From Actinophytocola xanthii (GTDB lineage: Bacteria; Actinomycetota; Actinomycetes; Mycobacteriales; Pseudonocardiaceae), in assembly GCF_001921205.1 (NCBI RefSeq), contig NZ_MSIE01000034.1, forward strand, positions 1 through 64,000: a stretch of 64,000 nt of DNA, given 5' to 3'. The number at the start of each line of letters is the position of its first letter. Position 1 is the stretch's first letter. Below are positions 386 through 19,546 of the stretch, in pieces. Made by a program: the position numbers and the translations under genes. The notes under the pieces are model-generated. The model was not told the DNA's origin and did no database searches. It was given only the letters and a program-made list of their open reading frames with translations.

Positions 386-389
386 TCCC

Positions 390-1915: not shown

Positions 1916-3261
1916 GGCCGACACGTGGTGTTCTCGACCGTGCCGCCGGGGGACTGAACGCGGTCACCGCGCCGTTCGACCCCGAGGGGTACCTGCGCAG
2001 GCGTCGCGCTCGCGGCGGTGACCCGGTCATCGTCCGGGTGCCGGGGGCGGCGGGGCGGATGGTGGTCTCGGGAGATCCCGAGGCAGCCCGGGAGCTGTTC
2101 GGCGGGCCGGTCGAGCTGTTCGACGTCCCCCGTCCCAACCCGGTGGAGCCGCTGCTGGGGACCGGGTCGCTGATCATGCTGAGCGGCGAACGGCACCGAC
2201 GTGAGCGGCGGGTGCTCACGCCCCCTTTCGGCGGACAGCGGATGCGGGCCTACGGGACGATCATCCAGGAGGCGGTGCTCGACCAGGTGCGCTCGTGGCG
2301 GCCGGGGCAACGGCTGGACGCCCAGCGGTTCGGGCAGGCGGTCACGCTGTCGGTGATCGTCCGCGCGGTGTTCGGCGTCGACGGCGGCTCGCTTGGTGAG
2401 CACTTTGCCACCACGACGGCACAGCTGCTCCAGGGGTACAAGCCCATGCTGTCGGTGCCGGCGCTGCGGCGGACGGTGGGGCGGTTGGGCCCGGAGGCGC
2501 GGCTGCGGCGGCGGTTGGCCGCGTTCGACTCGCTGCTCGCCGCGGAGATCGAGAACCGACGCGGCACCGGCGTCGCCGACCGGGAGGACATCCTGTCACT
2601 GCTGTTGTCGGTCCGCTACGACGACGGCAGCGAGCTGTCCACTTCGGATCTGCTGGACGAGCTGCGCACGATGGTCGTCGCCGGCCACGAGACGACGGCG
2701 ACGACGCTCGGCTGGGCGCTGTACCACCTCTACCGGGAACCGGCCCTGGTGCGGCGGCTGATCGAGGAACTGGCGCCGCTCGGTAATCCGCCACCACCGG
2801 CGGAGCTGGCCGAGCTGCCCTTCCTGCGGGCGGTGTGCCACGAGGCGTTGCGGCTGCACCCGGTCGTACCGATGGTCGCCCGGCGGCTGCTCGCACCCTG
2901 GCGGTTCCGCGGCGTCGACCTCGCCCCGGGCGACACGGCGGCCGTCGCGACCTCCTTGCTGCACCACAACCCCGACGTCTGGGACGAGCCGCTCACGTTC
3001 CGGCCGGACCGGTTCCTGGACCGCGAACCACGAGGGTTCGCGTTCGCGCCGTTCGGGGGCGGGCACCGGCGCTGCCTCGGCGCGGCGTTCGGCGACTACG
3101 AGCTGCGCATCGCACTGGGCACGGTGGTCTGCATGGCCACGCTGTCGATGCCCGAGCGGGAACGGGGTCGCCGGATCCCCCCTGCCGTGCCACGCAACAT
3201 CACGTTCGGCCCACGGCGGCCGCTCATGCTGACCTTCGAGGGGCCGACCGGTACCGCATGA
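1912..3261 (+). CDS. cytochrome P450 (class with FGGGHRRC haem loop)
   Basis: 449 residues. P450 landmarks are present in order: the I-helix oxygen-binding motif AGHETT, the K-helix ExxR as EALR, a PDRF-type meander (FRPDRF) and the haem loop FGGGHRRCLG with the thiolate Cys at residue 388. The open frame runs further upstream, but the ATG at 1912 overlaps the previous stop (ATGA) and gives the normal family length, so I chose it. The haem-loop wording resembles mycobacterial CYP132/135/138-like and fatty-acid-type P450s (family knowledge, not tested). No ferredoxin gene is adjacent. It faces the end of the minus-strand operon with only a 3-nt gap, so a role in the same pathway is possible but unproven. 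Confidence 0.93.
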   Translation: MRPTRGVLDRAAGGLNAVTAPFDPEGYLRRRRARGGDPVIVRVPGAAGRMVVSGDPEAARELFGGPVELFDVPRPNPVEPLLGTGSLIMLSGERHRRERRVLTPPFGGQRMRAYGTIIQEAVLDQVRSWRPGQRLDAQRFGQAVTLSVIVRAVFGVDGGSLGEHFATTTAQLLQGYKPMLSVPALRRTVGRLGPEARLRRRLAAFDSLLAAEIENRRGTGVADREDILSLLLSVRYDDGSELSTSDLLDELRTMVVAGHETTATTLGWALYHLYREPALVRRLIEELAPLGNPPPPAELAELPFLRAVCHEALRLHPVVPMVARRLLAPWRFRGVDLAPGDTAAVATSLLHHNPDVWDEPLTFRPDRFLDREPRGFAFAPFGGGHRRCLGAAFGDYELRIALGTVVCMATLSMPERERGRRIPPAVPRNITFGPRRPLMLTFEGPTGTA

Positions 3262-3264
3262 CGA

Positions 3265-3777
3265 CTAGCTGCTGGTGGTGGGCAGGGGGCGCAGGAGCAT
3301 CCGCTCGAGGTTGTCGGCGGGGTCGTCGCAGTGGTACTCCACCGGGGGCTCGTCGGTGAGCATTCTGGGGAGGAACCAGGGGATGTTGCTCACCACCGCC
3401 CGGTTGCCGTGGTCGCAGACCCAGGCCGACGGGAGCCACTCGAGCTGTCCCTCGGGTACCGCACGCCTACCCGGCCAGGTCACGTCCGCGTCGACGAACT
3501 CCGCGACGTAGGCGTACATCCCGGTGCGGCTCGCTCCGGCGGGCCAGGTCACCGTGCCGACCGCCCGGAGCCGGTCGGCGTGGGCGAGGTCGATCCCCGC
3601 CTCCTCCCGGACCTCCCGGCGAACACACCGCTGCGGCGTCTCCGAACCGACGCGCTTCCCGCCGAGACCGTTCCAGCGGTCGACGAAGGGCGGCCTCGCC
3701 CGCAGGAGCATGAGGACACGTTCCCTGTGGACACAGAAGCAGATGGTGTACGGCAGCGCCGGACGCTCGTCGTCCAT
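3265..3777 (-). CDS. Nudix hydrolase
   Basis: 170 residues from the ATG at 3777; a TTG three codons upstream overlaps the previous stop and is an alternative. A complete Nudix box (G-x5-E-x7-REVxEExGI) spans residues 40-62, with glutamates for metal binding. The N-terminal wording (YTICFCVHRERVLMLLR) is like MutT/8-oxo-dGTP-type members. Enzymes of this family cleave nucleoside diphosphate-X bonds. It is the last gene of the ten-gene operon and is almost fused to the nucleotidyltransferase-like gene, so it may hydrolyse a nucleotide intermediate or side product of that pathway rather than do general housekeeping. Confidence 0.9.
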   Translation of the reverse strand: MDDERPALPYTICFCVHRERVLMLLRARPPFVDRWNGLGGKRVGSETPQRCVRREVREEAGIDLAHADRLRAVGTVTWPAGASRTGMYAYVAEFVDADVTWPGRRAVPEGQLEWLPSAWVCDHGNRAVVSNIPWFLPRMLTDEPPVEYHCDDPADNLERMLLRPLPTTSS

Positions 3778-3782
3778 CGGCG

Positions 3783-5390
3783 TCAACCGCCCGACCCGTG
3801 CGGTTGCCGACCCGCGGTCGCGATCAAGTCCTGTGCCTCCTGGATGGGAAAAGCGGCGTTGAGATAGCCCCCGAGCCTGGTCCAGTCATAGCCGATGTCG
3901 AGCGTACTTCGCCACTCGGCGATCGACGCGAAGGAGGACGGGAACAGCTCCACCCCCACCGCCGCGCGCATGGCCGTGACGAGGTCCTCGAGGTCGGTCA
4001 GGAGCCTGGCCGCCTGGTCGGCGTTCGCCACGCGGAACTCGACCGCTCGCGCGGACTCCGCGATGGGCCGCGGGAGCTCCGGCAGACGCGACAGCCAGTC
4101 GAGTGACTCCTCGGCGGGAGGTTGCGGGCTCACGCCGAACGCGCTCAGCACCGCCAGGCACGCCTGCCGGAACATGCGGCGCGAGGTCGTCTCGACCACG
4201 GGCCACTGGCGACGCCGCGCCGCGCCCTCGGCGTCCTCCCGTGCGTTCTCCACCATGATGTTCGCCCAGACCAACGACATGCCCGCCTCCGCGAACCGCC
4301 GCGCCGCCAGCGGAACGAGGGTGACGAACGGGTCGTGCTCGGTGACCGGCGCCCCGTGCAGGGACAGGATCGGCCGGCGGGCTGTCGGCGGCGGGGACGC
4401 GACCGCGTACCCCCGCACCAGACCGCCGCCCCGCCAGCGCAACCGCAGGAGACCGACCCGGAGGAACTCGGCGATGACCTCGCCCGCGTCACCCGTCACG
4501 ACCTCCGGCAGCGGTGTGTCGAAACGCAGCGATCGCCAGACGTGTGCCGCCTTCTCGTTCAGCGTGAACACGTCTTGGCCGCGCAGCAGGTGCAGGTGCC
4601 GGCCCAGTGGCCAGGTCGTGACGCCCCGGACCCGGGCGAGCAGTACGCGTGCCGGGTCGAGCGGGGCCCCGTCGACGCCGAGCTCGGGAAGCGAGCCGAC
4701 GCAGTGCCGGACGTACTGCTCCGGCGGCAGGTCCGAGCGCTCGGCGGTCTCGAGCATCCGGCGGACCGGCGCCGAGCCGTCGACACGCGCCAGCTGCTGG
4801 GAGATCCACTTGCGTTCGAGGTAGCTCTCGCCGCGCTCGGCGACCCAGGACTTGGCGCCCTGGATCAGCGCGGTGCGGGCCCAGCTCGCGGCGCGGTCCA
4901 CGGCCCCGAGTCCAGCGAGCGCCGTCGCGTACCGGGCGGACTGCCGGGCACGCTGGCGGAACCAGACCACGACGATCCGGGCCAGCTCGTCCTCGGGCAG
5001 GATGTCCCGAACGGCCTTCAGCGACGAAGGGTTGCGCAGCGGAACAGCTCGGACCAGCCGCTGGACCCGGTTCAACGAGTCCTCGGGGATGCCGGCGACT
5101 CCTCGGGGGCCAGACCTGGCGGAGCCGGCGACCGCGCGCGCCAACTCCTCGGCCTGCCGCACGGACCGCACGCGGACCTCGACCCGGCGTCCCTCCACGA
5201 ACACGATGGTGGGCATCGTCGGGAAGTCGTGGTCGCCGGCCTCCAACAACAGGAAGTCCACATCGGAGGAGTCGTTGCCGAAACCCTCGGCGATCGATCC
5301 CTCGATGACCGCCGCCGTGCCCTCCGGTACGTCGATCCCCTCGGTCGCGAGGGTGAGCAGGTGCTGGAGGTGGTCGTGGGACAGGATCAC
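3783..5390 (-). CDS. nucleotidyltransferase-fold protein with a PqqD-like segment
   Basis: 535 residues. Near the N terminus is a minimal nucleotidyltransferase signature, GSxxEG followed by SSDVD (residues 31-45), which supplies the first two metal-binding aspartates; REVRV-like strands follow. Residues about 258-317 (LGRHLHLLRG, FTLNEKAAHVWRSL) resemble the PqqD fold, a peptide- or partner-binding module. The rest (320-535) is unassigned and partly helical. The GTG start at 5390 overlaps the lyase stop, giving tight coupling. Nucleotidyltransferase and HPr-kinase-like genes sit together in some lasso-peptide clusters (family knowledge), but no precursor, protease or cyclase is seen here. 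Transfer of a nucleotide to a small-molecule or carrier substrate is inference. Confidence 0.75.
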   Translation of the reverse strand: MILSHDHLQHLLTLATEGIDVPEGTAAVIEGSIAEGFGNDSSDVDFLLLEAGDHDFPTMPTIVFVEGRRVEVRVRSVRQAEELARAVAGSARSGPRGVAGIPEDSLNRVQRLVRAVPLRNPSSLKAVRDILPEDELARIVVVWFRQRARQSARYATALAGLGAVDRAASWARTALIQGAKSWVAERGESYLERKWISQQLARVDGSAPVRRMLETAERSDLPPEQYVRHCVGSLPELGVDGAPLDPARVLLARVRGVTTWPLGRHLHLLRGQDVFTLNEKAAHVWRSLRFDTPLPEVVTGDAGEVIAEFLRVGLLRLRWRGGGLVRGYAVASPPPTARRPILSLHGAPVTEHDPFVTLVPLAARRFAEAGMSLVWANIMVENAREDAEGAARRRQWPVVETTSRRMFRQACLAVLSAFGVSPQPPAEESLDWLSRLPELPRPIAESARAVEFRVANADQAARLLTDLEDLVTAMRAAVGVELFPSSFASIAEWRSTLDIGYDWTRLGGYLNAAFPIQEAQDLIATAGRQPHGSGG

Positions 5391-6859
5391 GGCGTCACCT
5401 CCGCAGCGCGAGGCCGGTTCCCGCGGGCCAGCCGCGCGGCCATTCCGTCGGAACCCAGCAGCCGCCGCTCCCACAACCCGCACACGTACTCGGTGCGTTC
5501 CGCCGCGAGTCCGGTGTAGCTCTCGGGGTGGACAAGGACGTCGGACAGCCCGCCGAGCGACGAGGCCAGGCGGTCGTCCGCACGCAGCACACCGGACAGT
5601 GCCTCGCCGGAGGACTGCGCGCGCCGCACGGCGGCGTGCACGAGATCGTAGGCGTCGGCATGGCCGGACAACGCGAGCAGCACGTACAGCGCTTCGGTCG
5701 TCACCTGCTCGCCCGCCGCGTCGAGGTGGCGGCGCATTCGCGCGGGGTTCACCCGCACCGCAGCCAGAGCGCGGGTCAGGACGGTGGTGGCGCAGGAGAA
5801 GGCGACGAACAGCTCCACGGCGAACCGGGCCGAGGCGCCGTTGGTGAGGTCCCGCTGGTGCTCGGAGACCTGGTCGAGCAGGGTGGTGACCAGGCGGGGC
5901 GCGAACGACTTCCACAGGCTCTTCACCATCTCGAAGCGGAACGGGTTCGTCTTGTGCGGCATCGTCGACGACCCGACCTCCGTCGCGTCCGGGGCGGTTC
6001 CCAGCTCACCGATCTCGCTGCGCATGAGGTGCCGCACGTCGTCGGCGATGTTCGCCAGCACGGAGAAGCACGACGTGACCGCCCAGGCCAGGTCGCCGGC
6101 GTACTCCGGCGGCACGATCTGGGTGGCGTGTGCCGCGGGCGCGATGCCCAGCTCGCCCAGGACGGCCTGCTCGAGCTCCTCGGGCGAGAACGTCGTGCGG
6201 TCCCCGAGGAGTGTGTGCGCGTTGTAGGCGCCGACCGCACCCGACGCCTTGCCCTTCAGGCAGTGCGCCGCCCGTTCGACTGCCTCGATCCGGTTGCCGA
6301 GCCGGTGCACGTACCCCGCCACGGTGAACCCGAAGGTGACCGGGACGGCGAACTGCCCGTGGGTCCGGCCCACCTGGGGGAGCTCCGCAGTGGCCCGCGC
6401 CCAGTCGATCAACAGTCGCGCGAGGTCCAGCAGGTCCGGCAGCAGCACCTCGATCGTGAGGTCGCGCAGGCGCAGCGCCGCGGCCGTGTCGGTCACGTCA
6501 GACGAGGTCAACAGCAGGTGCACCCATGGGCGGGCGGGCTCGGAGACCCGCCTCCCGACACAGTTGACCAGTGCACGCACGTGGTGCTTGGTCCGCAGCT
6601 CCTCGAGGTAGACCTCCTCCGGGGTGACCTCGTGGCAGGCCGCCGCGATCTCGTCCGCCACCTCGGCCGTGCACAGCCCGGCCTTCGCCAGCGCACGCGC
6701 GAGGGCGACCTCCACCTTGAGCTGGTAGCGGATGTGCGCGCTCTCCGAGGCGTACGGTCGTGCCCGGTCGTAGACTCCGCGGATTCCCTTGTAGTAGCGG
6801 TAGTCCAGCGGCGACACGTCGTCGAAGTCGAAGCGGGGATAACCGTCCACGTCAGACAC
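5387..6859 (-). CDS. adenylosuccinate lyase homologue (fumarase/aspartase superfamily)
   Basis: 490 residues, close to the usual family length. The superfamily signature GSSTMPHKTNP spans 296-306, a THGQ catalytic histidine is at 167, and KHHVR carries histidines at 92-93. PurB normally removes fumarate from adenylosuccinate or SAICAR. Here it overlaps its neighbours by 4-8 nt inside a biosynthetic operon and lies two genes after a PurA-like gene, so a specialised lyase that frees an amine from a succinyl adduct is more likely than housekeeping purine synthesis. Its substrate is inference. Argininosuccinate-lyase-type chemistry in N-N bond pathways is an alternative. Confidence 0.85.
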   Translation of the reverse strand: MSDVDGYPRFDFDDVSPLDYRYYKGIRGVYDRARPYASESAHIRYQLKVEVALARALAKAGLCTAEVADEIAAACHEVTPEEVYLEELRTKHHVRALVNCVGRRVSEPARPWVHLLLTSSDVTDTAAALRLRDLTIEVLLPDLLDLARLLIDWARATAELPQVGRTHGQFAVPVTFGFTVAGYVHRLGNRIEAVERAAHCLKGKASGAVGAYNAHTLLGDRTTFSPEELEQAVLGELGIAPAAHATQIVPPEYAGDLAWAVTSCFSVLANIADDVRHLMRSEIGELGTAPDATEVGSSTMPHKTNPFRFEMVKSLWKSFAPRLVTTLLDQVSEHQRDLTNGASARFAVELFVAFSCATTVLTRALAAVRVNPARMRRHLDAAGEQVTTEALYVLLALSGHADAYDLVHAAVRRAQSSGEALSGVLRADDRLASSLGGLSDVLVHPESYTGLAAERTEYVCGLWERRLLGSDGMAARLARGNRPRAAEVTP

Positions 6860-7949
6860 GAGATGTCGCCACCCTCCGGGCGAGTACCTCCAGGGCTTCG
6901 GCCACCTGGCCGCGGGTGTGCTCCCGGCGCAGGAAGAAGTGGTGCGGCACGCACCGACTCAGGGCGTCGATCACCTTCGCCTCCCGCTCCGACGCCGGGC
7001 CGCCGGCGAAAAGACCCGACCAGTTGCCTGGCGCCAGCTCCTGCCGGAAGGCCGCGACGTTGCCGGTCAGCTCGTCGCGGACCACCGCCGCGCTCACCGG
7101 TTCGACCGACGGCGGCCCGACGCGGCGGTCCAGCAGCGGCCTGACGACAAGTCCGACCGGCGCGGAGCGCCGGACGCCGTAGAGCCTGGACAACTGGTCG
7201 AGCGGCACGACGATCTTCGCCCGCACGTCGGTGTCCGGTGCCGGTCCCAGCTCCGGGAACAGTTCGGCCGTCCCGCGTCCCACGGTCAGTGGATACGGCA
7301 GACCGTGGGACACTGCGCCGCCGGGTCCGGCGCGGACCACCACCCGGTCGTTGGACAGGAACTCCGCTCCCCGGTGTACCAGGAGGTGGAGCAGTGTGGT
7401 GGTCTTGCCGTCGCCACTCTCACCGAAGACGAGCACACCGCGGCCGTCCAGCACACAGGCGCCGGCGTGGACGATCGTCGCCGTCGCAGAGCACCACGGC
7501 ATCAGCACCTGACCCCGCACCACGCTGACCGTGTCGGCCTCGAGAACCCAAGGCCGGGGTTGGCACACCACGACCTCCCGTCGTCCGAGGTGGACGATGA
7601 CCCGGGTGCCGTCCCGTTCGGTCTCGACGAGCACCACGTCGCCGAGCGCCCGTCGCCGAGCCGTGTCCGCCCCGCCGAACACCGCGATCCGCTCGGAGTC
7701 GGGAATGAGCGCGTCGAACGCCGCCGACGCGCCGGACGGGAGCGACGGCAGGCACCACACGTGCACCGTCGAGCCGTCGTCGGCGGGCGGCGACGGACCG
7801 GCGAGCGCCGCCACCGCGTCCAACGGCTCCGGCCGCGGCGCGACGAGCTCGACGCGCAGACCGTGCCACCACAGCTCGGTGTGACACCGGAACGGCTGCG
7901 TGCGCAGCTCGCCGAGCAGCGCCTCGCCGACGTCGTGCCGGGCCAGCAT
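6852..7949 (-). CDS. HPr kinase/PEPCK-like P-loop protein
   Basis: 365 residues from the ATG at 7949, with an in-frame GTG immediately upstream. A P-loop of the HPr-kinase type, GESGDGKTT, lies at 176-184 and is followed by LSNDRVVV, the strand with the acidic residue typical of this fold. The N-terminal 150 residues are not recognised. In bacteria, related proteins phosphorylate HPr, and HprK-like proteins of some RiPP clusters phosphorylate a peptide serine. No HPr or precursor gene is seen nearby. Its stop and start overlap both neighbours, so it acts with the PurA- and PurB-like proteins. The phosphoacceptor is unknown. Confidence 0.75.
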   Translation of the reverse strand: MLARHDVGEALLGELRTQPFRCHTELWWHGLRVELVAPRPEPLDAVAALAGPSPPADDGSTVHVWCLPSLPSGASAAFDALIPDSERIAVFGGADTARRRALGDVVLVETERDGTRVIVHLGRREVVVCQPRPWVLEADTVSVVRGQVLMPWCSATATIVHAGACVLDGRGVLVFGESGDGKTTTLLHLLVHRGAEFLSNDRVVVRAGPGGAVSHGLPYPLTVGRGTAELFPELGPAPDTDVRAKIVVPLDQLSRLYGVRRSAPVGLVVRPLLDRRVGPPSVEPVSAAVVRDELTGNVAAFRQELAPGNWSGLFAGGPASEREAKVIDALSRCVPHHFFLRREHTRGQVAEALEVLARRVATSRV

Positions 7950-9031
7950 CACGACAGGAGCCCGGTGTCGCCGCTGAGATCGATCATCATGTCGGGTTCC
8001 GGGCCCGTGCTGACGTAGCTGAGGCGTCCGGACAGGTCGCAGCGCTCGACGACGTCCCTCAGCCAGTCAAGCGTCTGGGCGGAGAGATCCGCGAGCCGCC
8101 TCTTGCCGTAGTCCTGCCAGTTCCGGTAGTCCAGGAAGGTGAGGGCCACCCTGCTGGGACGGTTGATCGCGAGCGCCTGCTTGAGGTCCTCCTCGGCGAA
8201 CTCGAAGACGCGACGCACCCGGCCGGTGACCGTGGTCCTCTCGAGGATGGAGACCGGAGATCCGCTGCGCCGGGTGACGGTCTCCCAGCTGATCTCCCTG
8301 CCCGCCAGCGGGCCCGAGTTGCCGGCCACCCTGATCGGGTAGGTGCGGAACACGCCGATGATGTCGCGAACCGCGAGCGGGCTCACCGCCGCATCGGACA
8401 GCACCCCCGCGGCGTTGGGATCGCAGTTGGTCGTCATCGGGTAGTACGGCGAGGTCACGATCGACAGCAGGCTGCCCTGGTGTCCTTCGAGCAGGACCGG
8501 CCGGTTCTCGTTGATGTAGTTCCCGATGAACCCGATCGTGTCGGTGAGGTAGGGCTTCAGCCACTCGACGTCGTCGGCCCGGCGGATGGCGGTGTCGCGG
8601 GACAGCTTGTCCATCCGTGCGGCGCCGACCCCCTGGAGGGTCGACCCGTACCGCTCCCACCGGTTCTCCTGGGCCGCCGTGTCGGCGTGTCTGCTGTCGA
8701 CGATGACGACCCGGGGGTCGATGCGCAGCCGGTGTCGCACGTGGACGCCGGCCTGCTCGACCATCGCGATCTCCCTGCGCAGGATCTCCTCGCCGAAGAA
8801 CGCACCGGGTGCGATCACGAGCTCGCACCGGGGGTTGATCCAGGCGCACGGCAGGACCCGCATCGCGAACGGCTCCCCGTTGAAGTGCACCGTATGCCCC
8901 GCCTGGTGCCCGCCCGACCGCACCGCGACGTCGTAGCGGTCCGAGAGATATGCGACGACCTTCCCCTTGCCCTCGCTGCCGGCCTGCAGTCCGACGATCA
9001 CGTCGACACAGGAGTTCTCCCTGCTGTTCAT
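7949..9031 (-). CDS. short PurZ-like adenylosuccinate synthetase homologue
   Basis: 360 residues, against about 430 for bacterial PurA. The N-terminal P-loop reads GLQAGSEGKGK. The Ser at residue 19 sits where PurA has its catalytic Asp13, while the following Glu, the Lys residues and the catalytic His (GGHQAGHT, His46, equivalent to His41) remain; Asn38 is Gln43. The PurA arginine loop (GRRRR) is replaced by ERTTVTGRVRRV. Loss of the Asp and the short length are features I associate with PurZ, which uses dGMP instead of IMP. The family reaction is GTP-dependent coupling of an amino acid, normally aspartate, to a purine 6-oxo group. It pairs with the downstream PurB-like lyase. The substrate is inferred; a protein alignment would settle the subfamily. 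Confidence 0.82.
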   Translation of the reverse strand: MNSRENSCVDVIVGLQAGSEGKGKVVAYLSDRYDVAVRSGGHQAGHTVHFNGEPFAMRVLPCAWINPRCELVIAPGAFFGEEILRREIAMVEQAGVHVRHRLRIDPRVVIVDSRHADTAAQENRWERYGSTLQGVGAARMDKLSRDTAIRRADDVEWLKPYLTDTIGFIGNYINENRPVLLEGHQGSLLSIVTSPYYPMTTNCDPNAAGVLSDAAVSPLAVRDIIGVFRTYPIRVAGNSGPLAGREISWETVTRRSGSPVSILERTTVTGRVRRVFEFAEEDLKQALAINRPSRVALTFLDYRNWQDYGKRRLADLSAQTLDWLRDVVERCDLSGRLSYVSTGPEPDMMIDLSGDTGLLS

Positions 9032-9067
9032 TGGCTTCCTCTGTTCCCCGAATTTCCCCGATGAGTG

Positions 9068-11764
9068 TCAGGACACCGTGTTCTCGTCCGACAGGACGTG
9101 CACCGTGCCCTCGCCACCGTCGACGCGCAGGCGCATGCCGGTCGCGATCTCCCTGGTGACGTTCCTTATCTGTACGACGCACGGAATCCCGAGCTCGCGC
9201 GCCACGATCGCGACATGGGTAAGCGGGCTGCCCCGCTCGATGAGGAGGGCCTTCGCGGCCGGCAGTGCCGCGATCCACCCGGGATCGGTGCGGTAGGTGA
9301 CCAGGATCGCGCCCTCGACGTCGTGCGGCTCCGTGACGACCTTGGCCTCGCCCTCCACGACGCCCGGACCGCACGGCACGCCACGCAGCACCTCCGACCG
9401 CGGAGAGACCACCGCACCGCCGGCGGAAGACGGGTCCCAGCCGGCACGCTCGAGGTTGCCGCCCCAGTACACCGGCCCGTAGGTGGTGAACCTCGGCGGC
9501 GCAACCAGCTCCCGGTCCTGGGCGTGCTGCCGCTTGCGCAGGTCCACCAGCGACGCGAGCTCCCGGTGGGCGATCGTCCCGTCGAAACAGCCGCGCAGCT
9601 CGTCGAGGCGGAGGTAGAAGACGTCCCGCTCGTCGTTCAGCGCCCCGAGGCGGGCCAGGCTCGCGCCCATCGCCCGGATCATCCTCCTGGCCATGCCGAA
9701 CGCCCTGGTCCGGCAGAACCGCACCCGCTCTCGATCGGCGAGGGAGCGCCGGACCCGCCGGCGAACCTGCTGGTACACGATCCGACGCAGGCCGTGCAGG
9801 TGTCTGTCGAGGATCCGCTCGGCGGCCTGGCTGTCGTTCCCGTTCTGCCGCGCGAAGGCCAGTGCGCCGCGCAGCATGACGAACAGCCGCGACGGGTCCT
9901 GGCGAAGGTCCGGCTCCTCCAGCTTCAGCTCGTTCACGCTCCGGTACCCGAAGTCGGCGATGTAGGCGTCGATCTCGCCGACCAGCTCCCGGAGCCCGCG
10001 GTCGGCCAGCGTGGCGTACAGCTGTTCCGGCGCGGTCTCCCTGACCAGGCGGGACAGTTCCTCGTCCGCGCGGATCGTCGCGGCCAGCCGTTCGAAGCGG
10101 TACGCCGGTTCGGCCGACTCCAGCACGCCCGCCGGGTTCGCCACTGCCCACGGGAGCCACCGCGGCACGTCGGGGGGAAGCCATCGTTCGGTCAGCTTCT
10201 GCAGCAGGCCGAAGGAGAGCCCGATGACGGCCTCCAGGACGATCATGGCGCCCCAGCGATCCAGAAGCGTCCGTTCCAGCTTCCTGAACAGCTGGTACAC
10301 CTCGTCAGCCGGCAACGCGTCGAAGTCGACGTCGTCGAACTCCCGGTAGGTCGTGGCGAAGTGCCGGAGAAAGTCACGAACCGTCCGGTCGACCGCGAGG
10401 AACCGTCGCCAGTACGCGGTGACGATGACGGCGCGGTGTGGGCGTTCCTGCCACCGGAACCGTGAGCTGAACGGTCGCAGCTCCATCGCCAGCTCGTCGG
10501 GCAGCGGTTCCGCCAGCCCCATCGACACCTCGAGCACCTGCCGGTTCACCCGGTAGAACGGAGCGAGCCGGATGACCCGGTACCAGTTCAGCAGGTTGTA
10601 GTAGACGCGACCGTGGAAGTAACCCAGCATGGTGGGAAGCCACTCGTCCATCTGCCGCATGCCGTGGCGGGGCACGGCGAGCAACTGGCAGTACTGCCGG
10701 TAGACCTGGTGGTAGACGTGGGCGGCGAAGCTGAACGTCATCGGCGAGGTGATGTCGCTGAAGCTCTCGATGATGTTCGAGTTGTCCCAGATCCGCAGCT
10801 CACCCCGGGGCGACGGGTCGGCCCCCCGCACAGGGCCGGTGACCGGCCTGCTCTGCAGGATCCAGACGGAGTCGTCCGCGATCGCCCACTCGATGTCCTG
10901 CGGCCCGGAGAACGCGGCGACGACGTCGGACGCCACGCGGACCAGGCGAGCGACCTCCTCGCCGGAGAGCGCACTGGCCGCTCGTGCTTCGGCCCCGACG
11001 ACGGTCGTCACGCTGCCGTCGCCGTGCTCGTCCGGGTCGACCCGTTCCCGCTTGTCGCCGACGACGACCTCCCGCACCGCGCCGCTCCGCCGGTCGACGA
11101 GCACGGTGTCGGCGTCGACCAACCCCGACACCAACCCCTCGCCGAGCCCGAGCACCGCGCTGATCATGTACTCGTCGGGGTCGCCGCCGAGCGGGTTGGC
11201 CGTGAACAACACACCGCTCTTGTCGGCCGGCACCATGCGCTGGACAACCACGGCCATGCCGCTGGTCTCACAGGGCAGCCCGTGCGCCAGTCGGTACCGC
11301 AGGGCCTGCGCGGAGTACGCCGACGCCCAGCACCGCCTGACGTGTGCGACCACCGAGTCGAGACCGCCGATGTTGAGGAACGTCGAGAACTGTCCGGCGA
11401 ACGAGTAGCGGGCGCCGTCCTCCTCGGCCCCCGAGGAACGCACGGCGACCCGGCCGGCACCGACGTGTTCGTAGGCCCGCCGGACGGTGGCGAGCAGGTC
11501 GGGCTCCGGGGTGGTGCCGAGCACGAGCTCCTCGATCCGCACCGCGACGAGGTCCGCCGTGTCGGCGGTGACCCCCACGAGGTGTTCCCGGACCTTCTCC
11601 ACCAGGCCGTTGGCGCGGAGGAACCGGTCGAACACGTCGACGCCGATGACCGCCCACTCCGGCACGTCGGCCCCGTGTTCGGTGAGCCGGTGAAGGGTGT
11701 GGCCTTTGGCGCCGGCCAACCGGGCCGCATCGGCGCTCGGTGTCTCGCTGGTGATGACGGACAT
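9068..11764 (-). CDS. PEP-synthase-like / rifampin-phosphotransferase-like dikinase
   Basis: 898 residues. The layout matches the antibiotic phosphotransferases rather than true PEP synthase. An N-terminal ATP-grasp region covers about 1-320 (VAVRSSGAEEDG, ADKSGVLFTANP, WILQSRPVTGP), a long central substrate region follows (about 320-770), and a C-terminal swivelling phospho-histidine domain carries SPLTHVAIVARELGIPCVV with His850. No pyruvate/PEP TIM barrel is visible. Family enzymes split ATP to AMP and phosphate and move the beta-phosphate to a hydroxyl of the substrate. In this operon it could phosphorylate the product for self-protection or activate an intermediate; both are inference. 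The ATG at 11764 gives the expected N terminus. Confidence 0.85.
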   Translation of the reverse strand: MSVITSETPSADAARLAGAKGHTLHRLTEHGADVPEWAVIGVDVFDRFLRANGLVEKVREHLVGVTADTADLVAVRIEELVLGTTPEPDLLATVRRAYEHVGAGRVAVRSSGAEEDGARYSFAGQFSTFLNIGGLDSVVAHVRRCWASAYSAQALRYRLAHGLPCETSGMAVVVQRMVPADKSGVLFTANPLGGDPDEYMISAVLGLGEGLVSGLVDADTVLVDRRSGAVREVVVGDKRERVDPDEHGDGSVTTVVGAEARAASALSGEEVARLVRVASDVVAAFSGPQDIEWAIADDSVWILQSRPVTGPVRGADPSPRGELRIWDNSNIIESFSDITSPMTFSFAAHVYHQVYRQYCQLLAVPRHGMRQMDEWLPTMLGYFHGRVYYNLLNWYRVIRLAPFYRVNRQVLEVSMGLAEPLPDELAMELRPFSSRFRWQERPHRAVIVTAYWRRFLAVDRTVRDFLRHFATTYREFDDVDFDALPADEVYQLFRKLERTLLDRWGAMIVLEAVIGLSFGLLQKLTERWLPPDVPRWLPWAVANPAGVLESAEPAYRFERLAATIRADEELSRLVRETAPEQLYATLADRGLRELVGEIDAYIADFGYRSVNELKLEEPDLRQDPSRLFVMLRGALAFARQNGNDSQAAERILDRHLHGLRRIVYQQVRRRVRRSLADRERVRFCRTRAFGMARRMIRAMGASLARLGALNDERDVFYLRLDELRGCFDGTIAHRELASLVDLRKRQHAQDRELVAPPRFTTYGPVYWGGNLERAGWDPSSAGGAVVSPRSEVLRGVPCGPGVVEGEAKVVTEPHDVEGAILVTYRTDPGWIAALPAAKALLIERGSPLTHVAIVARELGIPCVVQIRNVTREIATGMRLRVDGGEGTVHVLSDENTVS

Positions 11765-11784
11765 CGGAACTACTCCCCTCGCGG

Positions 11785-12702
11785 TCAGCCGACGGTCCAC
11801 AGCAGCGCCTCGACGATGACGCCGAACTGGAGGAGCACGGCGTAGATCAGACCGGCGAGCCCGAGGGCCCGGGCCAGCCGACTCGCCCGGGCGGCCGGTG
11901 GGGCCATCGCCCACTCCCCTGCCGTCCAGGCGATGAGCAGTCCGAGGAGGACGCTCTGGTAGATGATGAAGAACCAGGTCACCGGCAGGGTGACGACGAT
12001 GGTCGCGACACACGCGGCCGCGCAGCACAGCAGCGCGAGCAGGACGGCACGCACGCCGTCGCGCCCGAGGCGATAGGGCCGGTAGTCGAGGTCGGGCGCC
12101 TTGCGCGAGAACTTCCAGAACTCGTAGGCCGCCCAGAACAACACGACCACAGCCGCCGTCGGTGCCGCCGCCGGCGCGACTCCGCCCTCGGAGAGCCAGA
12201 ACAGGACCGGGTAGGCCATGACCACCAGGGGGATGGTCTCGTAGCACACGGCGAGCGGCACCCGTCGGGTCGTCAGCCGGCGCTTGACCCAGAACGGGGT
12301 GAGCACCGTCAGGGCCACCGCGGCGAGAGCGCCGCCGAGCGCCGGTGGGTACAGCAGGTTCAGTGCCACGATCCCGACCACGACGGTGAGCCACCCGTAC
12401 GTGAGCCCGCTCCGGGTGTGCCCGGCGGCACCGCCGTCCTGCTCCAGGTCGTCGATGTCGTCGACGAGACGCAGCTGGAGGAACAGCAGCACGAACGAGG
12501 CGACGCCGAGCACGCCCGTCCACCGCAGGCCGACGGGGCCGACGGCACGGTCGAGGAGCAGCTGCGCGGACACGAACGTCAGCACGATCGCCGTTCCCTG
12601 GGTCGGGAGGGGAAACCGGGACGCCAGGTAGCCCCGCACCGCACGCGATACCGACCCGGTCCGTGGACCGCCCGTCCGTGCGCCTCCGACGGTGTCGTTC
12701 AT
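11785..12702 (-). CDS. UbiA-like polytopic prenyltransferase candidate
   Basis: 305 residues with about eight hydrophobic helices. An Asp-rich loop, LRLVDDIDDLEQD, ends near residue 89 after the second helix, where UbiA-family enzymes hold their first prenyl-diphosphate-binding motif. A second polar loop, FSRKAPDLDYRPYR, fits the second Asp-containing region. The longer open frame upstream overlaps the hotdog gene and is not used; the ATG at 12702 is 28 nt after that gene. If it is UbiA-like, it would attach a polyprenyl group to an acceptor at the membrane. Similarity is by topology and motif only, and the second motif is atypical. Confidence 0.6.
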   Translation of the reverse strand: MNDTVGGARTGGPRTGSVSRAVRGYLASRFPLPTQGTAIVLTFVSAQLLLDRAVGPVGLRWTGVLGVASFVLLFLQLRLVDDIDDLEQDGGAAGHTRSGLTYGWLTVVVGIVALNLLYPPALGGALAAVALTVLTPFWVKRRLTTRRVPLAVCYETIPLVVMAYPVLFWLSEGGVAPAAAPTAAVVVLFWAAYEFWKFSRKAPDLDYRPYRLGRDGVRAVLLALLCCAAACVATIVVTLPVTWFFIIYQSVLLGLLIAWTAGEWAMAPPAARASRLARALGLAGLIYAVLLQFGVIVEALLWTVG

Positions 12703-12730
12703 CCGCCTTCTCCCCGGGAAGTCGTGGATG

Positions 12731-13738
12731 TCAGGTGTCCTGGTGGACGCCGTGGGTGGCGAGAGCGGCGGCCACCGTCCTGCCCTTGCCGTCGTGGATC
12801 CGCACCTCGGCGTGCGCGACGGTCCTGCCGGTCGCGACGACCGCGCCGTCGGCGCGCAGCTCCGCGTCGTCGACGGGTACCCGTCGCAGGTAGGACAGCG
12901 CGATGTCCTGGGTGGCCGCCGTCGTGCCGCTGGGCAGTGCGGTGCGCACGGCCCCGTAGGCCGTGCGTTCGGCCAGGAACGCCAGCACCCCGCCCTGGAT
13001 GTTGCCCAGCGGCGAGGAGAACCACGCGTTGGCCGGGAGAACGGCCGAGAACTCACCGTCCTCAAAGGACAGAATGCGCAGTCCGGTCAGTCGCCCCAGC
13101 GGCGCGGTCGCGAACTCGGCGGACAGGCTGCCGGGTGACGGGTGCCACCTCTCCGGCACCGGAAGCTCGTGCGGCCTGAACCCGACGGCGGCGTCGGGAA
13201 TGGTGGCCGGGTTCGACGGCGGCGTGCACGCCGGTGCGGGCAGCGGGAAGAGCGCGGAGCGGGATGTCGACCGGGCGACGAGCCGGTTGTCGCCGTCCCG
13301 GACGGCAGCGGTCGACAGCACGTGGGTGGCCGTGGTGTGCAGCACGTGCCCGCTCGCCGTGAGCGGACCGGAACCCGGTCGTACCCGGTCGCCCAGCTGG
13401 ATGGAGGTCGACACGGTCACGAACCCGGTCGCGGGAGCCACCGTGGTGTAGACGGCACCGAGGTGTGCGGAGTCGAGCACGACCGCCAGGACGCCCTCGG
13501 TCATCACCCCGCCGCGCCAGTCCAACCAGCCCGTCGCCGGCATGCGGTAGGCGGCTGTGCCGCTGTCCACTGCCTCCAGGGTGATGCCGAAGAGCCGGTC
13601 GATCGGCGGGGCGACGGTCTTGCCCGCGATTCCCCAGCGCAGCTGCTCGAGCCCGGGAAGGGCGGTGAGCTCGGTCGCCCGTGCGTCGACGGACACCTCC
13701 TCGTACGGCGAGCGGAACGTCGCGACCAGCGCGGTCAT
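12731..13738 (-). CDS. double-hotdog (PaaI/acyl-CoA thioesterase-like) protein
   Basis: 335 residues made of two related halves. Each half has a hotdog helix preceded by a Gly-rich turn: GVMTEGVLAVVLDSAHLGAV in the first, GNIQGGVLAFLAERTAYGAV in the second. Each is followed by strands with TTATHVLSTAAVRDGD- or GRTVAHAEVRIHDGKG-like wording. PaaI-type thioesterases hydrolyse acyl-CoA thioesters. The first half has Asp in the helix (LDSAH) and the second Glu (LAERTAYG), possible catalytic acids. The ATG at 13738 overlaps the P450 stop (ATGA). Context suggests release or transfer of an acyl group in the pathway. Confidence 0.8.
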   Translation of the reverse strand: MTALVATFRSPYEEVSVDARATELTALPGLEQLRWGIAGKTVAPPIDRLFGITLEAVDSGTAAYRMPATGWLDWRGGVMTEGVLAVVLDSAHLGAVYTTVAPATGFVTVSTSIQLGDRVRPGSGPLTASGHVLHTTATHVLSTAAVRDGDNRLVARSTSRSALFPLPAPACTPPSNPATIPDAAVGFRPHELPVPERWHPSPGSLSAEFATAPLGRLTGLRILSFEDGEFSAVLPANAWFSSPLGNIQGGVLAFLAERTAYGAVRTALPSGTTAATQDIALSYLRRVPVDDAELRADGAVVATGRTVAHAEVRIHDGKGRTVAAALATHGVHQDT

Positions 13739-15030
13739 CGGCGCCGCGCTCCGGTTCGGGCCGCGGTGGGGGTGAACTCGCACGGCAGCCGCTTGATGCC
13801 GTTGATGAACGAGCTGCCGAGCAGCGGCTCCGGTTCACCCGCCGAGATGTCGGGTAGCCGTGCGAGCAGCTCGCGGAAGGCCGCGGTGATCTCCCGCCGC
13901 GCGAGGTGCGCGCCGAGGCAGAAGTGAGGTCCCGGACCACCGAACCCCACCTGCGGGTTCGGCTGCCTGCGGATGTCGAAGCGCGCCGCGTCGGGGAAGA
14001 CCGACTCGTCCCGGTTGGCTGACCAGTAGAAGAGCAGGACCTTGTCGCCACGGCGGTACCGCATGCCGTTCATGACGTGGTCACGGGTGGCGCGGCGGCG
14101 CATGAAGATCACCGGCGAGCTGATCCGCACGATCTCCTCGACCGCGGTCGGCGCGTGCCGCTCGAAGTCCGCGAGCCACAGCTGTCTCTGGTCCGGGTTG
14201 TGGGTGAGCAGTGTCAGCCCGTGTGCGATCGCGTTGCGTGTGGTCTCGTTGCCCGCGACCACCAGCAGGATGAAGAAGGACGCGATCTCCTGGTGGGTCA
14301 GCCGCTCGCCGTCGACGTCGGCGTTGACCAGTACCGAGACGAGGTCCTCGGTGGGGTGCTCGCGCCGGTGGGCGGCGAGGTCGGTGACCAGCTCGACCAG
14401 CTCGTTGGCCGCGCCGAGCATGCGGCTGCCGATGCCGGCGGGATCGGTGAGGAACTCCGGGTCGAAACCGCCCAGGATGCGTACCGAGCGGTCGATGACG
14501 AACTGGTGACGGGACGACGGAATGCCCATCATGTCGCAGATCACGATCAGCGGGAGCCTGGCCGCTACCTCGGCGACGAAGTCGCACTCGCCGCGCTCGG
14601 CGATGGCGTCGACGAGTCCCGCGGCGATCCGTCGCACATCGCTCTCGATCCGCCCCGTCATCTTCGGGGTGAAAGCCCGTGACACGATGCGCCGCAGCCG
14701 CGCGTGTTCGGGGTCGTCCATGTTGATCAGTGAGCCGAAGTACTGCGCGAACTCCGTTGGCATGTCGGCGATGTTGGTGGCGCCTCCCCAGGAGGAGCAG
14801 AACACCTCGGCGTTTCGGCTGGCCTCGACCACGTCCGCGTGCCGCACGAGGGCGTAGTAGCCCGCGCCGGGCGGGAAGCCGATCTCGGACAGGTCGGGCT
14901 CGGCGTAGAAGCGAGGCCGAGGCTGTGCCCTGAGCTCGGCGAAGGCCGCCTCCCGGTCCGCGAGCGAGCGGCTCCAGAACTCGGTGTCGGACAGGTCGAT
15001 GTCCATGACCGTGTTTTCGTCGCTCGCCAT
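13735..15030 (-). CDS. cytochrome P450, CYP124/125/142-like
   Basis: 431 residues. Motifs seen are AGNETTRN in the I helix, where Asn replaces the commoner acidic or His residue, EIVR for ExxR, and the haem loop GFGGPGPHFCLGAHLARRE with the thiolate Cys at 371. AGNETTRN with PHFCLGAHLARRE is the wording of actinobacterial P450s that hydroxylate terminal carbons of sterol or branched/isoprenoid chains (family knowledge). In an operon with a UbiA-like protein, an SDR and a thioesterase, hydroxylation of a lipid or prenyl chain is a reasonable inference. The ATG at 15030 was chosen over an upstream extension that runs into the SDR gene. Confidence 0.92.
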   Translation of the reverse strand: MASDENTVMDIDLSDTEFWSRSLADREAAFAELRAQPRPRFYAEPDLSEIGFPPGAGYYALVRHADVVEASRNAEVFCSSWGGATNIADMPTEFAQYFGSLINMDDPEHARLRRIVSRAFTPKMTGRIESDVRRIAAGLVDAIAERGECDFVAEVAARLPLIVICDMMGIPSSRHQFVIDRSVRILGGFDPEFLTDPAGIGSRMLGAANELVELVTDLAAHRREHPTEDLVSVLVNADVDGERLTHQEIASFFILLVVAGNETTRNAIAHGLTLLTHNPDQRQLWLADFERHAPTAVEEIVRISSPVIFMRRRATRDHVMNGMRYRRGDKVLLFYWSANRDESVFPDAARFDIRRQPNPQVGFGGPGPHFCLGAHLARREITAAFRELLARLPDISAGEPEPLLGSSFINGIKRLPCEFTPTAARTGARRR

Positions 15031-15043
15031 CGTCGACCTCCGT

Positions 15044-16159
15044 TCAGGATCCCTGAAGCTGCGCGGTTCGGCGGGACACGGTGCGGGGCGGCGGGCCGAA
15101 GTAGCCGACCCGAAGCCCGTGGTCGAGCAACTTCCGTAGATGTGCACGGCCTTCGATCGCGGGTTTTCCGCCGGCGATCTCCCGCGCCACGGTGGTGTCG
15201 AAGAACGCGCGGCGGCGGAAATAGTCCTCGTACAGCACCATGATGCTGCGGTAGTACCGCTGCTCCGCGGCCGTGAGCTGGTCCAGCTGCCAGTTCGCCG
15301 GCGGTATGTAGCGTGGCACGTGGAAGTTCGGGTACTCGGCGAGCACATCACTGAAGTCGCGGAGGGTCAGCGGACTGGCGCCAGTCACGTGAAGCGTCTT
15401 TCCCGCCGCGGTATCGAACCGGTCGCTGACGCGGGCGATCACGTCCGCGACGCGGTCGATGGGCACGAGGTCGATCACGGCGTCGTACAGGCCCGGGATG
15501 GCGCGTAGCCGGCCCTGCGTGAGCACCTTGATGACGATGTACATGTTCCTGAACTCCCGGATCGCACCGGTGCGCTGGTTCCCCACGACGACCGAGGGCC
15601 GCACCACCGCCACCGGCCAGCCATCGGCCCGCACCTCCGCGACAGCCACCTCCGCGTGGAACTTGCTCGCCTCGTAGGGGTTCCCGTGCCGCTGTCCGAG
15701 ATCGAGCTCGTCCTCCCGGACCACGCCCGTTCGGTCGCCGCACACGTAGGCCGTGCTCACGTGCACCAGCGGAATGCGCCGTGAACCGGCGGTGAGGAAG
15801 CCGAGCAGGTGACGAGTGCCGGTGACGTTGACCGACTCGTACCGGGCCGGGTCCAGACCGAAGTCGGTGACGGCGGCGTTGTGCACGACCAGATCGGAAC
15901 GGTTCGCGACGACGCGGCGGATTTCCGAGGACAGGCCCAACCCGGGGTCGGTTATGTCGCCACGTACGACGACGACCGACTCGGGTTCGAAATCCCCGCG
16001 AAACGGTTTCGTCCGAATGCGACGCCCATTGTTTCGAACCAGTTCGCCATTGTCGTGGGTAACCGCCACAACCGCGTGCCCACCGGCGAGCAGCCGGGCC
16101 ACGACCTCGGCCCCGACCAGTCCGGCGGCGCCGGTGACGACCACATTGCGTTTTGCCAT
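15044..16159 (-). CDS. extended SDR, NAD(P)-dependent epimerase/thioester-reductase-like
   Basis: 371 residues. A Rossmann fingerprint, TGAAGLVG, lies at about 9-16, the NNAA-like element appears as HNAAVTDFG, and the active site has HVSTAYVCG followed by YEASK. The closest wording I know is in the extended-SDR group that includes thioester reductases and fatty-acyl reductases (the SKFHAE and VVRPSVVVGNQRTG region). It is the first gene of the minus-strand operon and starts 275 nt from the divergent activator. It may reduce a carbonyl or an acyl thioester; with the hotdog protein and P450 it suggests handling of an acyl or alkyl unit. Confidence 0.85.
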   Translation of the reverse strand: MAKRNVVVTGAAGLVGAEVVARLLAGGHAVVAVTHDNGELVRNNGRRIRTKPFRGDFEPESVVVVRGDITDPGLGLSSEIRRVVANRSDLVVHNAAVTDFGLDPARYESVNVTGTRHLLGFLTAGSRRIPLVHVSTAYVCGDRTGVVREDELDLGQRHGNPYEASKFHAEVAVAEVRADGWPVAVVRPSVVVGNQRTGAIREFRNMYIVIKVLTQGRLRAIPGLYDAVIDLVPIDRVADVIARVSDRFDTAAGKTLHVTGASPLTLRDFSDVLAEYPNFHVPRYIPPANWQLDQLTAAEQRYYRSIMVLYEDYFRRRAFFDTTVAREIAGGKPAIEGRAHLRKLLDHGLRVGYFGPPPRTVSRRTAQLQGS

Positions 16160-16433
16160 GATTACGAACCCAAACCCTCGTCCCAGGATTGGGAGTCAAG
16201 CACAACCCTCTCACCGTGTCAGCCCGCGCCGAACCGAACGAGGCGCGCGACCCGGGCTGCCTGCGCCGATGGTGCGGGTGAACTTCTTCCGGCAGCCGCA
16301 CGAGGCCGATACACTCGCCTGATCGTGTGACGCCGCACAAGGGATGTCGAGCGCCGGTCGTGATCGGTGTCGTTGCGGATCGTCATTCAGGTATGGGCAA
16401 GCCGCTGGTGCACAACCTTGGGGGATGCGGTTG
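16160..16433 (-). promoter_or_regulatory. divergent promoter region between the operon and its activator
   Basis: 274 nt without a convincing ORF separates the SDR start from the StrR-like start, so both promoters must lie here. I looked for the palindromic StrR/NovG-type site (GTTCGACTG half-sites) and did not find a clear copy. A GATACACT element near 16308 could be a -10 box. It is the natural place for the activator to bind, but I cannot define the site. Confidence 0.5.
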
Positions 16434-17432
16434 ATGGCCGGTTACAGCAATGCTCGCCCGTCGGCCATCGGACAGCACGGCAGCACCGTCTGGCTTCCGG
16501 TCGAATCGTTGCGCGGGGCGGACTCGCCGCGGTTGGCCGGCGAGGATATCGAGCACGTGCTGGTGCTGAACGAGATGGAGGCACCGTTCCCGCCGATCAC
16601 GGTTCATCGCGCCACGATGCGCGTCATCGACGGGATGCACCGGTTGTGCGCCGCGAGGCTGCGCGGTGACGACCGGATCGAGGCGCGGTTCTTCGACGGG
16701 ACAGAGGATGACGCGTTCGTGCACGCCGTGGCGGCCAACATCGTGCACGGTCTGCCGCTGTCGCTGCCGGATCGCACGGCGGCGGCGGCCCGCATCGTCG
16801 CCTCCCACACCGACTGGTCCGACCGGCGGATCGCGGAGATCACAGGGCTCGCCGCCACTACCGTCGGATCGATCCGCCGGCGTTCGAACGAAGGCCTCAC
16901 ACAGTCGAACATCCGTGTCGGTCGGGACAAGAGGGCACGCCCGGTGAACAACTCCTCCGGCCGGACGCTCGCCGGCGAACTGATGAGCGAGCGCCCGGAG
17001 CTGTCGCTGCGGAAAGTCGCCAAGGCGGCCGGGATCTCCGTGTCCACCGCCCACGACGTCCGCAAGCGCATTCGCCAGGGCCAGCACCCGGTTCCGCCGA
17101 GGCAGCGGACCGGCGACGACGTCGAGTCCTCGACGACGGGCAAGGCGGCCGATCAACCGATGACGAGCTGCCCGAGGCGGATCCCCACGACCGAGATCGC
17201 GCCGATCCTGCGGCGGTTGCGAACCGATCCTTCACTGCGGTTCAGCGACAGCGGTCGTGAGCTGCTCCGGTGGCTGGTCCTGCACACCGCGGACGTCCAG
17301 CAGTGGGAGCGGCTCATCGACTCGGTACCGGCGTACTCGCGCCCGCTCGTCGCGGAGCTCGCCAGAGGAACCAGCAGGGCGTGGTACGAGTTCGCGAACC
17401 GCCTCGACCAGCTCGGGGACACGGAGTCCTGA
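16434..17432 (+). CDS. StrR/NovG-type ParB-like pathway activator
   Basis: 332 residues from the ATG at 16434, preceded by GGGGG at good spacing; an in-frame ATG at 16425 is an alternative. A ParB N-terminal-like domain spans about residues 18-110 (VWLPVESLRGADSPRLAGED and VIDGMHRLCAA). Two helix-turn-helix segments follow at about 127-150 (WSDRRIAEITGLAATTVGSI) and 191-213 (SLRKVAKAAGISVSTAHDV). This is the layout of the StrR family, cluster-specific activators in aminoglycoside, aminocoumarin and glycopeptide clusters (family knowledge). Its divergent position at the head of the ten-gene operon strongly suggests it switches that operon on. Confidence 0.88.
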   Translation: MAGYSNARPSAIGQHGSTVWLPVESLRGADSPRLAGEDIEHVLVLNEMEAPFPPITVHRATMRVIDGMHRLCAARLRGDDRIEARFFDGTEDDAFVHAVAANIVHGLPLSLPDRTAAAARIVASHTDWSDRRIAEITGLAATTVGSIRRRSNEGLTQSNIRVGRDKRARPVNNSSGRTLAGELMSERPELSLRKVAKAAGISVSTAHDVRKRIRQGQHPVPPRQRTGDDVESSTTGKAADQPMTSCPRRIPTTEIAPILRRLRTDPSLRFSDSGRELLRWLVLHTADVQQWERLIDSVPAYSRPLVAELARGTSRAWYEFANRLDQLGDTES

Positions 17433-17446
17433 CACCATCGGCATCA

Positions 17447-17480: not shown

Positions 17481-17481
17481 A

Positions 17482-19526: not shown

Positions 19527-19546
19527 GGGACTCCTCGGGAGAACGG

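Follow-up and report, generated by a model that had tools for sequence, protein, structure and literature searches.

The window analysed here, a stretch of 64,000 nucleotides from Actinophytocola xanthii (NCBI RefSeq assembly GCF_001921205.1, contig NZ_MSIE01000034.1, positions 1 to 64,000), is part of a contig 133.5 kb long, from a genome of 8.34 Mb, and carries a tightly packed operon of ten open frames on the minus strand (3265–16159). We tentatively interpret this operon as a natural-product pathway built on the phosphoester core of salinipostin (spt)-type clusters, in which the butyrolactone head module would have been swapped for a purine-nucleotide module, and we stop a little short of calling this whole account probable. 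The kinship of the operon core with spt-type clusters is very probable and a nucleotide head group is likely; that the product carries a 2-aminoadenine (base Z) nucleotide linked to a lipid as a phosphoester, and perhaps as a phosphotriester, is a doubtful prediction. Gene content, kinship, motifs and predicted folds are established, and every reaction is inferred from sequence. The operon is real rather than a chance assembly, and it is partly explained. Its genes, with starts chosen by us, and the neighbouring regulator are as follows.

g1, 15044–16159, minus strand: extended SDR, thioester-reductase-like (NAD_binding_4); core gene
g2, 13735–15030, minus strand: P450 of the CYP124/CYP125 group (methyl-branched-lipid omega-hydroxylase-like)
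g3, 12731–13738, minus strand: double 4HBT hotdog protein, thioesterase-like; not AfsA
g4, 11785–12702, minus strand: UbiA-like membrane protein with a DDxxD motif; core gene
g5, 9068–11764, minus strand: phosphoenolpyruvate (PEP)-synthase-type dikinase with ATP-binding and PEP-utiliser (phosphohistidine) domains; core gene
g6, 7949–9031, minus strand: short PurA homologue with the PurZ-type Ser for Asp13
g7, 6852–7952, minus strand: HPr-kinase-like P-loop protein (HprK_rel_B, 38.1 bits; cut-off 200)
g8, 5387–6859, minus strand: PurB-like lyase, extra copy, retaining the GSSTMPHKTNP signature
g9, 3783–5390, minus strand: nucleotidyltransferase (residues 1–240) with an RRE/PqqD-like winged helix (about 249–320) and a helical C-terminal part (about 363–480); core gene
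g10, 3265–3786, minus strand: Nudix hydrolase (PF00293, 39.5 bits) with a TTG start, or ATG at 3777
Regulator, 16344–17432, plus strand: StrR-like, cluster-situated, divergent from the operon

A sequence-only reading of this DNA had named these ten gene families and a divergent StrR-type regulator at the head, all of which we confirmed. Its description of the junctions as mostly ATGA-type overlaps was slightly too strong: five of the nine overlap (four by 4 bp and one by 8 bp) and the other four are gaps of 13–36 bp. As it had also stated, the Pfam matches of the ten genes include no polyketide synthase, non-ribosomal peptide synthetase or terpene synthase family.

A four-gene core shared with salinipostin-type clusters

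The reductase (g1), UbiA-like protein (g4), dikinase (g5) and nucleotidyltransferase (g9) make up the core of a cluster family with a wide distribution. Scanning named genomes with g9 yielded 140 confirmed relatives, and counts out of 80 refer to the best 80 of these; homologues in their loci were counted at 50 bits or more, g9 being present in all 80 by construction and some misses being contig ends. Genes in the relatives were called by a simple script that gives approximate starts, and two weak g9 matches without the core (L018 and L019) were excluded. The reductase recurs in 79/80 loci, the dikinase in 78/80 and UbiA in 76/80, in Streptomyces, Nocardia, Salinispora, Lentzea, Actinomadura, Paraburkholderia and other taxa. 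Further genes in these loci encode NDK (66/80), AfsA (66/80), FAAL (54/80), ACP (47/80) and thymidylate-kinase-like proteins (4/80), and the 22 relatives with neither FAAL nor ACP retain NDK and AfsA. The further genes of the AfsA/NDK-bearing relatives point to a gamma-butyrolactone head. PurA and HprK homologues occur in one locus of the 80, the same for both, and homologues of PurB, g3 and g10 in none. Thus, the earlier description of the gene set as unrecognised, for which a neighbourhood search had been suggested as a check, stands for the whole set, found in no other locus examined, but not for the shared four-gene core. The core is of a known kind, and the full combination is new among the loci examined. 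Among the papers listed by searches of the open-licence literature on salinipostin-type clusters and on PurA, PurB and PurZ, none describes this gene set.

Closer to A. xanthii, g9 matched eight of 298 genomes of the order, including its own; of the others, five matches were strong and two weak. In addition to the dikinase and the reductase, each of the five strong relatives has AMP-ligase (FAAL-like), acyl-carrier-like, NDK-like, UbiA and AfsA genes. Among 249 genomes of the family, ten matched, including its own and one weak match, and the five listed congeners gave none. The operon proteins are 42–50% (dikinase), 37–44% (nucleotidyltransferase) and 45–49% (reductase) identical to those of five relatives, and g4, at 18–25% identity, is related by profile to the UbiA proteins of these clusters.

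Two Salinispora loci (L056 and L058) contain nine co-directional genes in the order dikinase, FAAL, nucleotidyltransferase, ACP, SDR, NDK, UbiA, LLM oxidoreductase and AfsA. Nine genes also make up the salinipostin cluster spt, in which Spt9 is the butyrolactone synthase, and we take the two loci to be spt on the strength of genus, gene number, gene order and this general background. The operon shares its core with such AfsA-bearing clusters for bicyclic enol phosphotriesters, but lacks AfsA, NDK, FAAL, ACP and LLM/nitroreductase genes and has instead PurA, PurB, an HprK-like protein, a CYP124-like P450, a double hotdog protein and a Nudix protein. Because AfsA was absent when tested for, we did not class the operon as an spt cluster, although it probably works like one.

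Other relatives also combine the core with an absence of AfsA, as in Plantactinospora (L029), Lentzea (L042 and L057) and Actinomadura terrae (L064). Unlike the operon, these loci carry ACP and thymidylate-kinase-like genes, and at 50 bits none has a homologue of PurA, PurB or HprK; a weak match of the HprK-like kind (E 1.3e-4) occurs in L042. No description of them was found in the literature searches made. The nearest locus in content is that of Actinomadura macrotermitis (L081), with homologues of g9, g4 and g5, a PurA homologue and a protein resembling the HprK P-loop region (44% identity over 77 residues). It differs from the operon in a PurA that keeps Asp and in having no reductase or PurB match. 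L081 also encodes a pyridoxal-phosphate (PLP) enzyme, a split transketolase, HAD and Gfo/Idh proteins and a DUF6917 kinase-like protein, that is, another head module.

A tree of three concatenated core proteins, available for 88 of 91 rows (L046, L072 and L081 were dropped), placed the window outside the AfsA clade, which is the limit of our use of it. A branch with SH-aLRT 99 separates 76 rows, including every AfsA-bearing row, from 12 rows that lack AfsA, namely those of the window, L029, L064, four loci of Lentzea type and five of Paraburkholderia. This 12-row set was hand-picked beforehand, and the tree was a quick one without bootstrap, rooted by us on Paraburkholderia, for which the program warned of long branches coming together, that of the window among them. 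The division is not a clean rule, as L074, L080 and L061 (the last cut by a contig end) show no AfsA yet fall among the 76. Relatives outside the AfsA clade carry other kinases, for example the thymidylate-kinase-like proteins of L029 and L042.

The family shows further variation. In L014–L017 the FAAL-like ligase and the g9-type nucleotidyltransferase were called as a single protein of about 1107–1169 residues. One Kutzneria-like genome has two g9-type loci (L183 and L184), with the whole core in L183. Five Paraburkholderia loci (L078, L088, L097, L098 and L099) carry the four-gene core and an AMP-ligase gene outside Actinomycetota, with no AfsA match. The genes and identities of L180, from the same family as A. 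xanthii, equal those of Lentzea waywayandensis L042. Among viral contigs, 43 stretches fitted a g9 pattern and none was confirmed; plasmids gave no match to g9, and neither g7 nor g9 had a match in PADLOC.

A PurZ-like protein in the proposed purine module

We consider a nucleotide head likely because the operon has a PurA and a PurB homologue beside the standard copies of the genome, because g6 has Ser for Asp13 and because a tree groups g6 with other Ser-bearing proteins. The g6 motif reads GSEGKGK, which places Ser at the catalytic Asp13 of PurA. In our alignment, this residue is Ser in all seven PurZ-type phage rows, the Bacillus phage row and all six rhizobial-type rows, and Asp in all seven PurA rows and in L081. 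Asp13 is 99% conserved in the PurA group and Ser is found in all 147 phage sequences of the PurZ group (PMC12884076, excerpt); in the PurZ of phage S-2L, residue S23 sits beside the 2-amino group of dGMP (PMC8342488, excerpt). The 23-row tree splits the Ser-bearing proteins (that of the window, the seven PurZ-type phage, the Bacillus phage and the six rhizobial-type proteins) from the Asp-bearing ones at 96/96. Furthermore, the g6 loop RVAGNSGPLAGREISW, of the GNSGPL type, resembles that of the actinophage PurZ-type rows; the rhizobial rows share part of it, and the loop differs in those of S-2L and Vibrio. Unlike the phage enzymes, g6 lies in a bacterial operon with biosynthetic genes. These features suggest that g6 is PurZ-like and probably works like PurZ; we did not file it as PurZ because it falls under the cut-off of the PurZ model. 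A change from TT to ST near the active site, examined as another mark of PurZ, was not diagnostic, since the Asp-bearing row of Rhizobium leguminosarum L163 also has ST.

A standard PurA with the GDEGKGK motif is encoded on contig C159 of the genome, as is a standard PurB scoring 418.7 bits, above its cut-off; g6 and g8 are therefore extra copies. The g8 protein itself reaches 251.6 bits on TIGR00928 (cut-off 326.2) and 251.8 bits in the comparison with this standard copy. When genomes of the class were scanned, 390 of 394 matched PurA, the best stretch besides the gene of the window scoring 72.8 bits, and 32 of 394, including that of A. xanthii, matched HprK, the best other scoring 61.4 bits over the middle P-loop part.

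Purine enzymes also recur in nucleoside pathways. As in the operon, the formycin pathway has a second Pur set (PMC8724604, excerpt). PurA and PurB copies are likewise found in R. leguminosarum L163 (plasmid pCC283b_4), where the PurA, unlike g6, keeps Asp; this is a deazapurine-type cluster with FolE, QueC, QueE, a nitrile hydratase subunit, IMP dehydrogenase, a phosphoribosyltransferase and short PurA and PurB. Tubercidin synthesis resembles the operon in its Nudix step, in which phosphate is removed, but has been proposed to rely on the PurA and PurB of primary metabolism (PMC6112128, excerpt). Unlike these three, the operon has no deazapurine or pyrazole genes, and none of its ten genes is a base- or sugar-building gene of the Que or phosphoribosyltransferase type.

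Three rhizobial plasmid loci from Rhizobium and Agrobacterium (L150, L151 and L161) encode PurZ-like proteins with the same Ser and an N-terminal extension, which in L151 is weakly AAA_18-like. The gene is followed by one of about 690 bp, with a DUF7002 domain in L150 and L151. The L151 pair lies near RelA/SpoT and AbiJ-domain genes and gave no match in PADLOC. We take this to be a PurZ-type system.

The strongest competing explanation keeps the spt-type pathway and has the PurA and PurB homologues act on something other than a nucleotide, converting a head-group carbonyl or lactam to an amine or amidine with aspartate as the nitrogen donor. It would suit the kinship of the core, which is with spt-type clusters, and the wide variation of head modules, from the AfsA type to that of L081, where a PLP enzyme, transketolase and Gfo/Idh protein stand beside a PurA homologue; the identity of g6 to the aligned phage and rhizobial sequences is, moreover, just 34–37%. 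However, g6 has the PurZ-type residue at the diagnostic position, which in PurZ adjoins the 2-amino group of the base, and the operon also encodes a Nudix protein. We regard this explanation as rather unlikely, though it is one to be taken seriously.

Far less credible is a role of g6 and g8 as self-protection copies, insensitive to a product that inhibits PurA or PurB. Both are extra copies, and resistant target copies are frequent in clusters. However, the joint copying of two targets would be unusual, and Asp13 has been called essential in adenylosuccinate synthetase (PMC12884076, excerpt), so that g6, with Ser, could hardly replace PurA.

A predicted lipid tail and the enzymes that may join it to the head

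The remaining genes bear on what a purine nucleotide head would be joined to. Together with the kinship of the core, g2, g1 and g4 point to a lipid alcohol tail. The best match of g2 is CYP124, a methyl-branched lipid omega-hydroxylase (E 2.3e-114), and it is 58% identical to the P450 of Plantactinospora L029. The g1 protein falls in the thioester-reductase-like SDRs. The UbiA-like label given to g4 by the sequence-only reading drew just 18.7 bits from the Pfam UbiA model (cut-off 34.2), but holds up through the DDxxD motif, which g4 shares with its homologues, and a profile comparison (hhalign) of the g4 type with the other UbiA type in these clusters, at a probability of 91.7. We also considered g3 as a stand-in for AfsA, which is itself a double hotdog protein; comparison by hhalign with a five-sequence AfsA profile gave a probability of 0.2, and the idea was rejected. 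The proposal of a purine part and a lipid part in one cluster is supported.

The dikinase g5 scores 1120 bits on NF004881 (cut-off 883), compared with 312–344 bits on models of the prodigiosin ligases PigC and RedH and 306 bits on that of rifampin phosphotransferase, which are of the same dikinase type. It had been described as antibiotic-phosphotransferase-like; as a shared core gene of the family, it is most likely biosynthetic.

The predicted model of g9 (mean predicted local distance difference test, pLDDT, 92.5) shows a kanamycin nucleotidyltransferase fold in residues 1–240 (Foldseek E 5.8e-05; Z 11.2 and 4.9 Å over 222 residues to 6p06), in which the metal-binding acids D43, D45 and E71 are invariant across 32 sequences. 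A PqqD-like part, also noted from the sequence, has no Pfam match, and a separate model of residues 241–352 (pLDDT 83.5, with low values in the last third) comes closest to RRE/PqqD domains, at marginal scores: RRE-bearing enzymes occupy Foldseek ranks 1–7, the best being TbiB1 (E 5.2e-03) and none below 0.001, and the best Z, 8.0, is to MccB (2.7 Å over 74 residues). This supports a PqqD-like part, short of proof. Two other matches were set aside, one of the C-terminal part to HEPN-like proteins (Z 11.7), which carries no weight since helical bundles score so by chance, and one to Tam41 (Z 7.6), which lies below the level that the tool trusts.

The RRE-like domain raises the prospect of a phosphorylated or nucleotidylated peptide, held by g9 and modified by g7 and g9. 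TbiB1 and MccB are the nearest structures to this domain, and HprK-like kinases and PqqD-like chaperones co-occur in NCBIfam HprK-related systems. Such a pathway is improbable. The long gap at 16160–16343 overlaps just short open reading frames of 30–64 codons, none a convincing precursor, and the other gaps are at most 36 bp; a precursor elsewhere was not looked for. Moreover, the RRE-like part is shared by 31 aligned g9 relatives, Salinispora loci included, whose product, if these are spt, is no peptide (PMC6681047, excerpt).

Proposed pathway and its weak points

If the operon does couple a purine nucleotide to a lipid, the StrR-like regulator would turn it on; on a 2-aminopurine nucleotide of the GMP or dGMP type, g6 would couple aspartate to the 6-oxo group. 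Removal of fumarate by g8 would then yield a 2,6-diaminopurine nucleotide, whose phosphorylation state could be set by the kinase g7 and the Nudix protein g10, a role that NDK-like or thymidylate-kinase-like proteins may have in relatives. On the lipid side, g1 would reduce a thioester to an aldehyde or alcohol, g2 would hydroxylate the tail and g3 may handle acyl thioesters. The nucleotidyltransferase g9 could transfer a nucleotidyl unit, or a head-group phosphate, onto the alcohol or phosphate form of the lipid. The dikinase g5, which would convert ATP to AMP and Pi via a phosphohistidine, could complete or activate the phosphoester with the membrane-bound g4. The predicted product class joins a nucleotide of the 2-aminoadenine type to a lipid as a phosphodiester or phosphotriester.

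Several observations weigh against this account. The g6 protein sits on a long branch and its placement among the Ser-type proteins is not settled, with Pyrococcus PurA among its nearest rows by path. Its 187.7 bits on the NCBIfam PurZ model fall under the cut-off of 300, and it scores higher, at 247.7 bits, on the archaeal-type PurA model NF003295 (cut-off 368). It also retains the PurA-like TGR where PurZ rows show K or L. The same Ser is found in rhizobial proteins of unknown function, and L081, the sole other PurA-bearing locus among the 80, keeps Asp. FAAL, ACP, NDK and AfsA are absent from the Pfam matches of the ten genes, so that the operon does not give the source of the tail; the genome has 62 matches to AMP-binding proteins elsewhere. 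The account gives no role to the RRE-like part of g9, and its steps for g4, g5, g7 and g9 are guesses.

A decaying or composite operon with no coherent pathway would explain why the full set was found in this genome alone, among the genomes and loci examined, but is hard to credit for ten open and tightly packed frames in which g5, g8 and g9 retain their motif residues.

Regulator and neighbouring genes

The regulator had been called a cluster-specific StrR-type activator. Our results support a cluster-situated StrR-like regulator: it is 41–49% identical to the 12 records listed of 94 matching plasmid records, three of them having been annotated by their depositors as streptomycin biosynthesis proteins. 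A profile search at E 0.01, in which a ParB-like N-terminal domain was sought, returned helix-turn-helix families as the sole matches. The genome has a second copy (67% DNA identity over 544 query bases) on contig C151, which contains six AMP-binding (PF00501) matches. Short imperfect repeats at most were seen in the divergent promoter region. Between 3000 and 17500 there were no promoter patterns (0.3 expected) and five terminator patterns (3.2 expected), and no RNA family reached its gathering score in window positions 1–20000.

A second P450 gene (1912–3261, plus strand) converges on the operon and stops three bases short of the end of its last gene; upstream of it are genes for a membrane protein (1226–1915) and a LuxR-type regulator (618–1130). 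This region could form part of the cluster. An amidase gene (17482–18939, minus strand) lies directly behind the StrR-like regulator, and further along (22215–33323, minus strand) a 3702-residue protein carries DUF11 repeats (26 stretches) and CARDB domains.

Implications for the cluster family

Salinipostins are potent antimalarials (PMC11095149, excerpt) and related enol phosphates phosphorylate active-site serines (PMC6681047, excerpt); a nucleotide-headed relative would therefore be a new chemotype. The operon becomes a testable member of a broad family with one four-gene core and many head modules. If its product does carry 2-aminoadenine, the salinipostin core would be an exchangeable phospholipidation module that accepts different head groups, and a PurZ-type enzyme, hitherto associated with the DNA synthesis of phages, would serve a bacterial pathway to a small molecule. 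A PurZ-like enzyme of cellular origin, paired with a PurB, would also be informative about the source from which phages acquired 2-aminoadenine synthesis.

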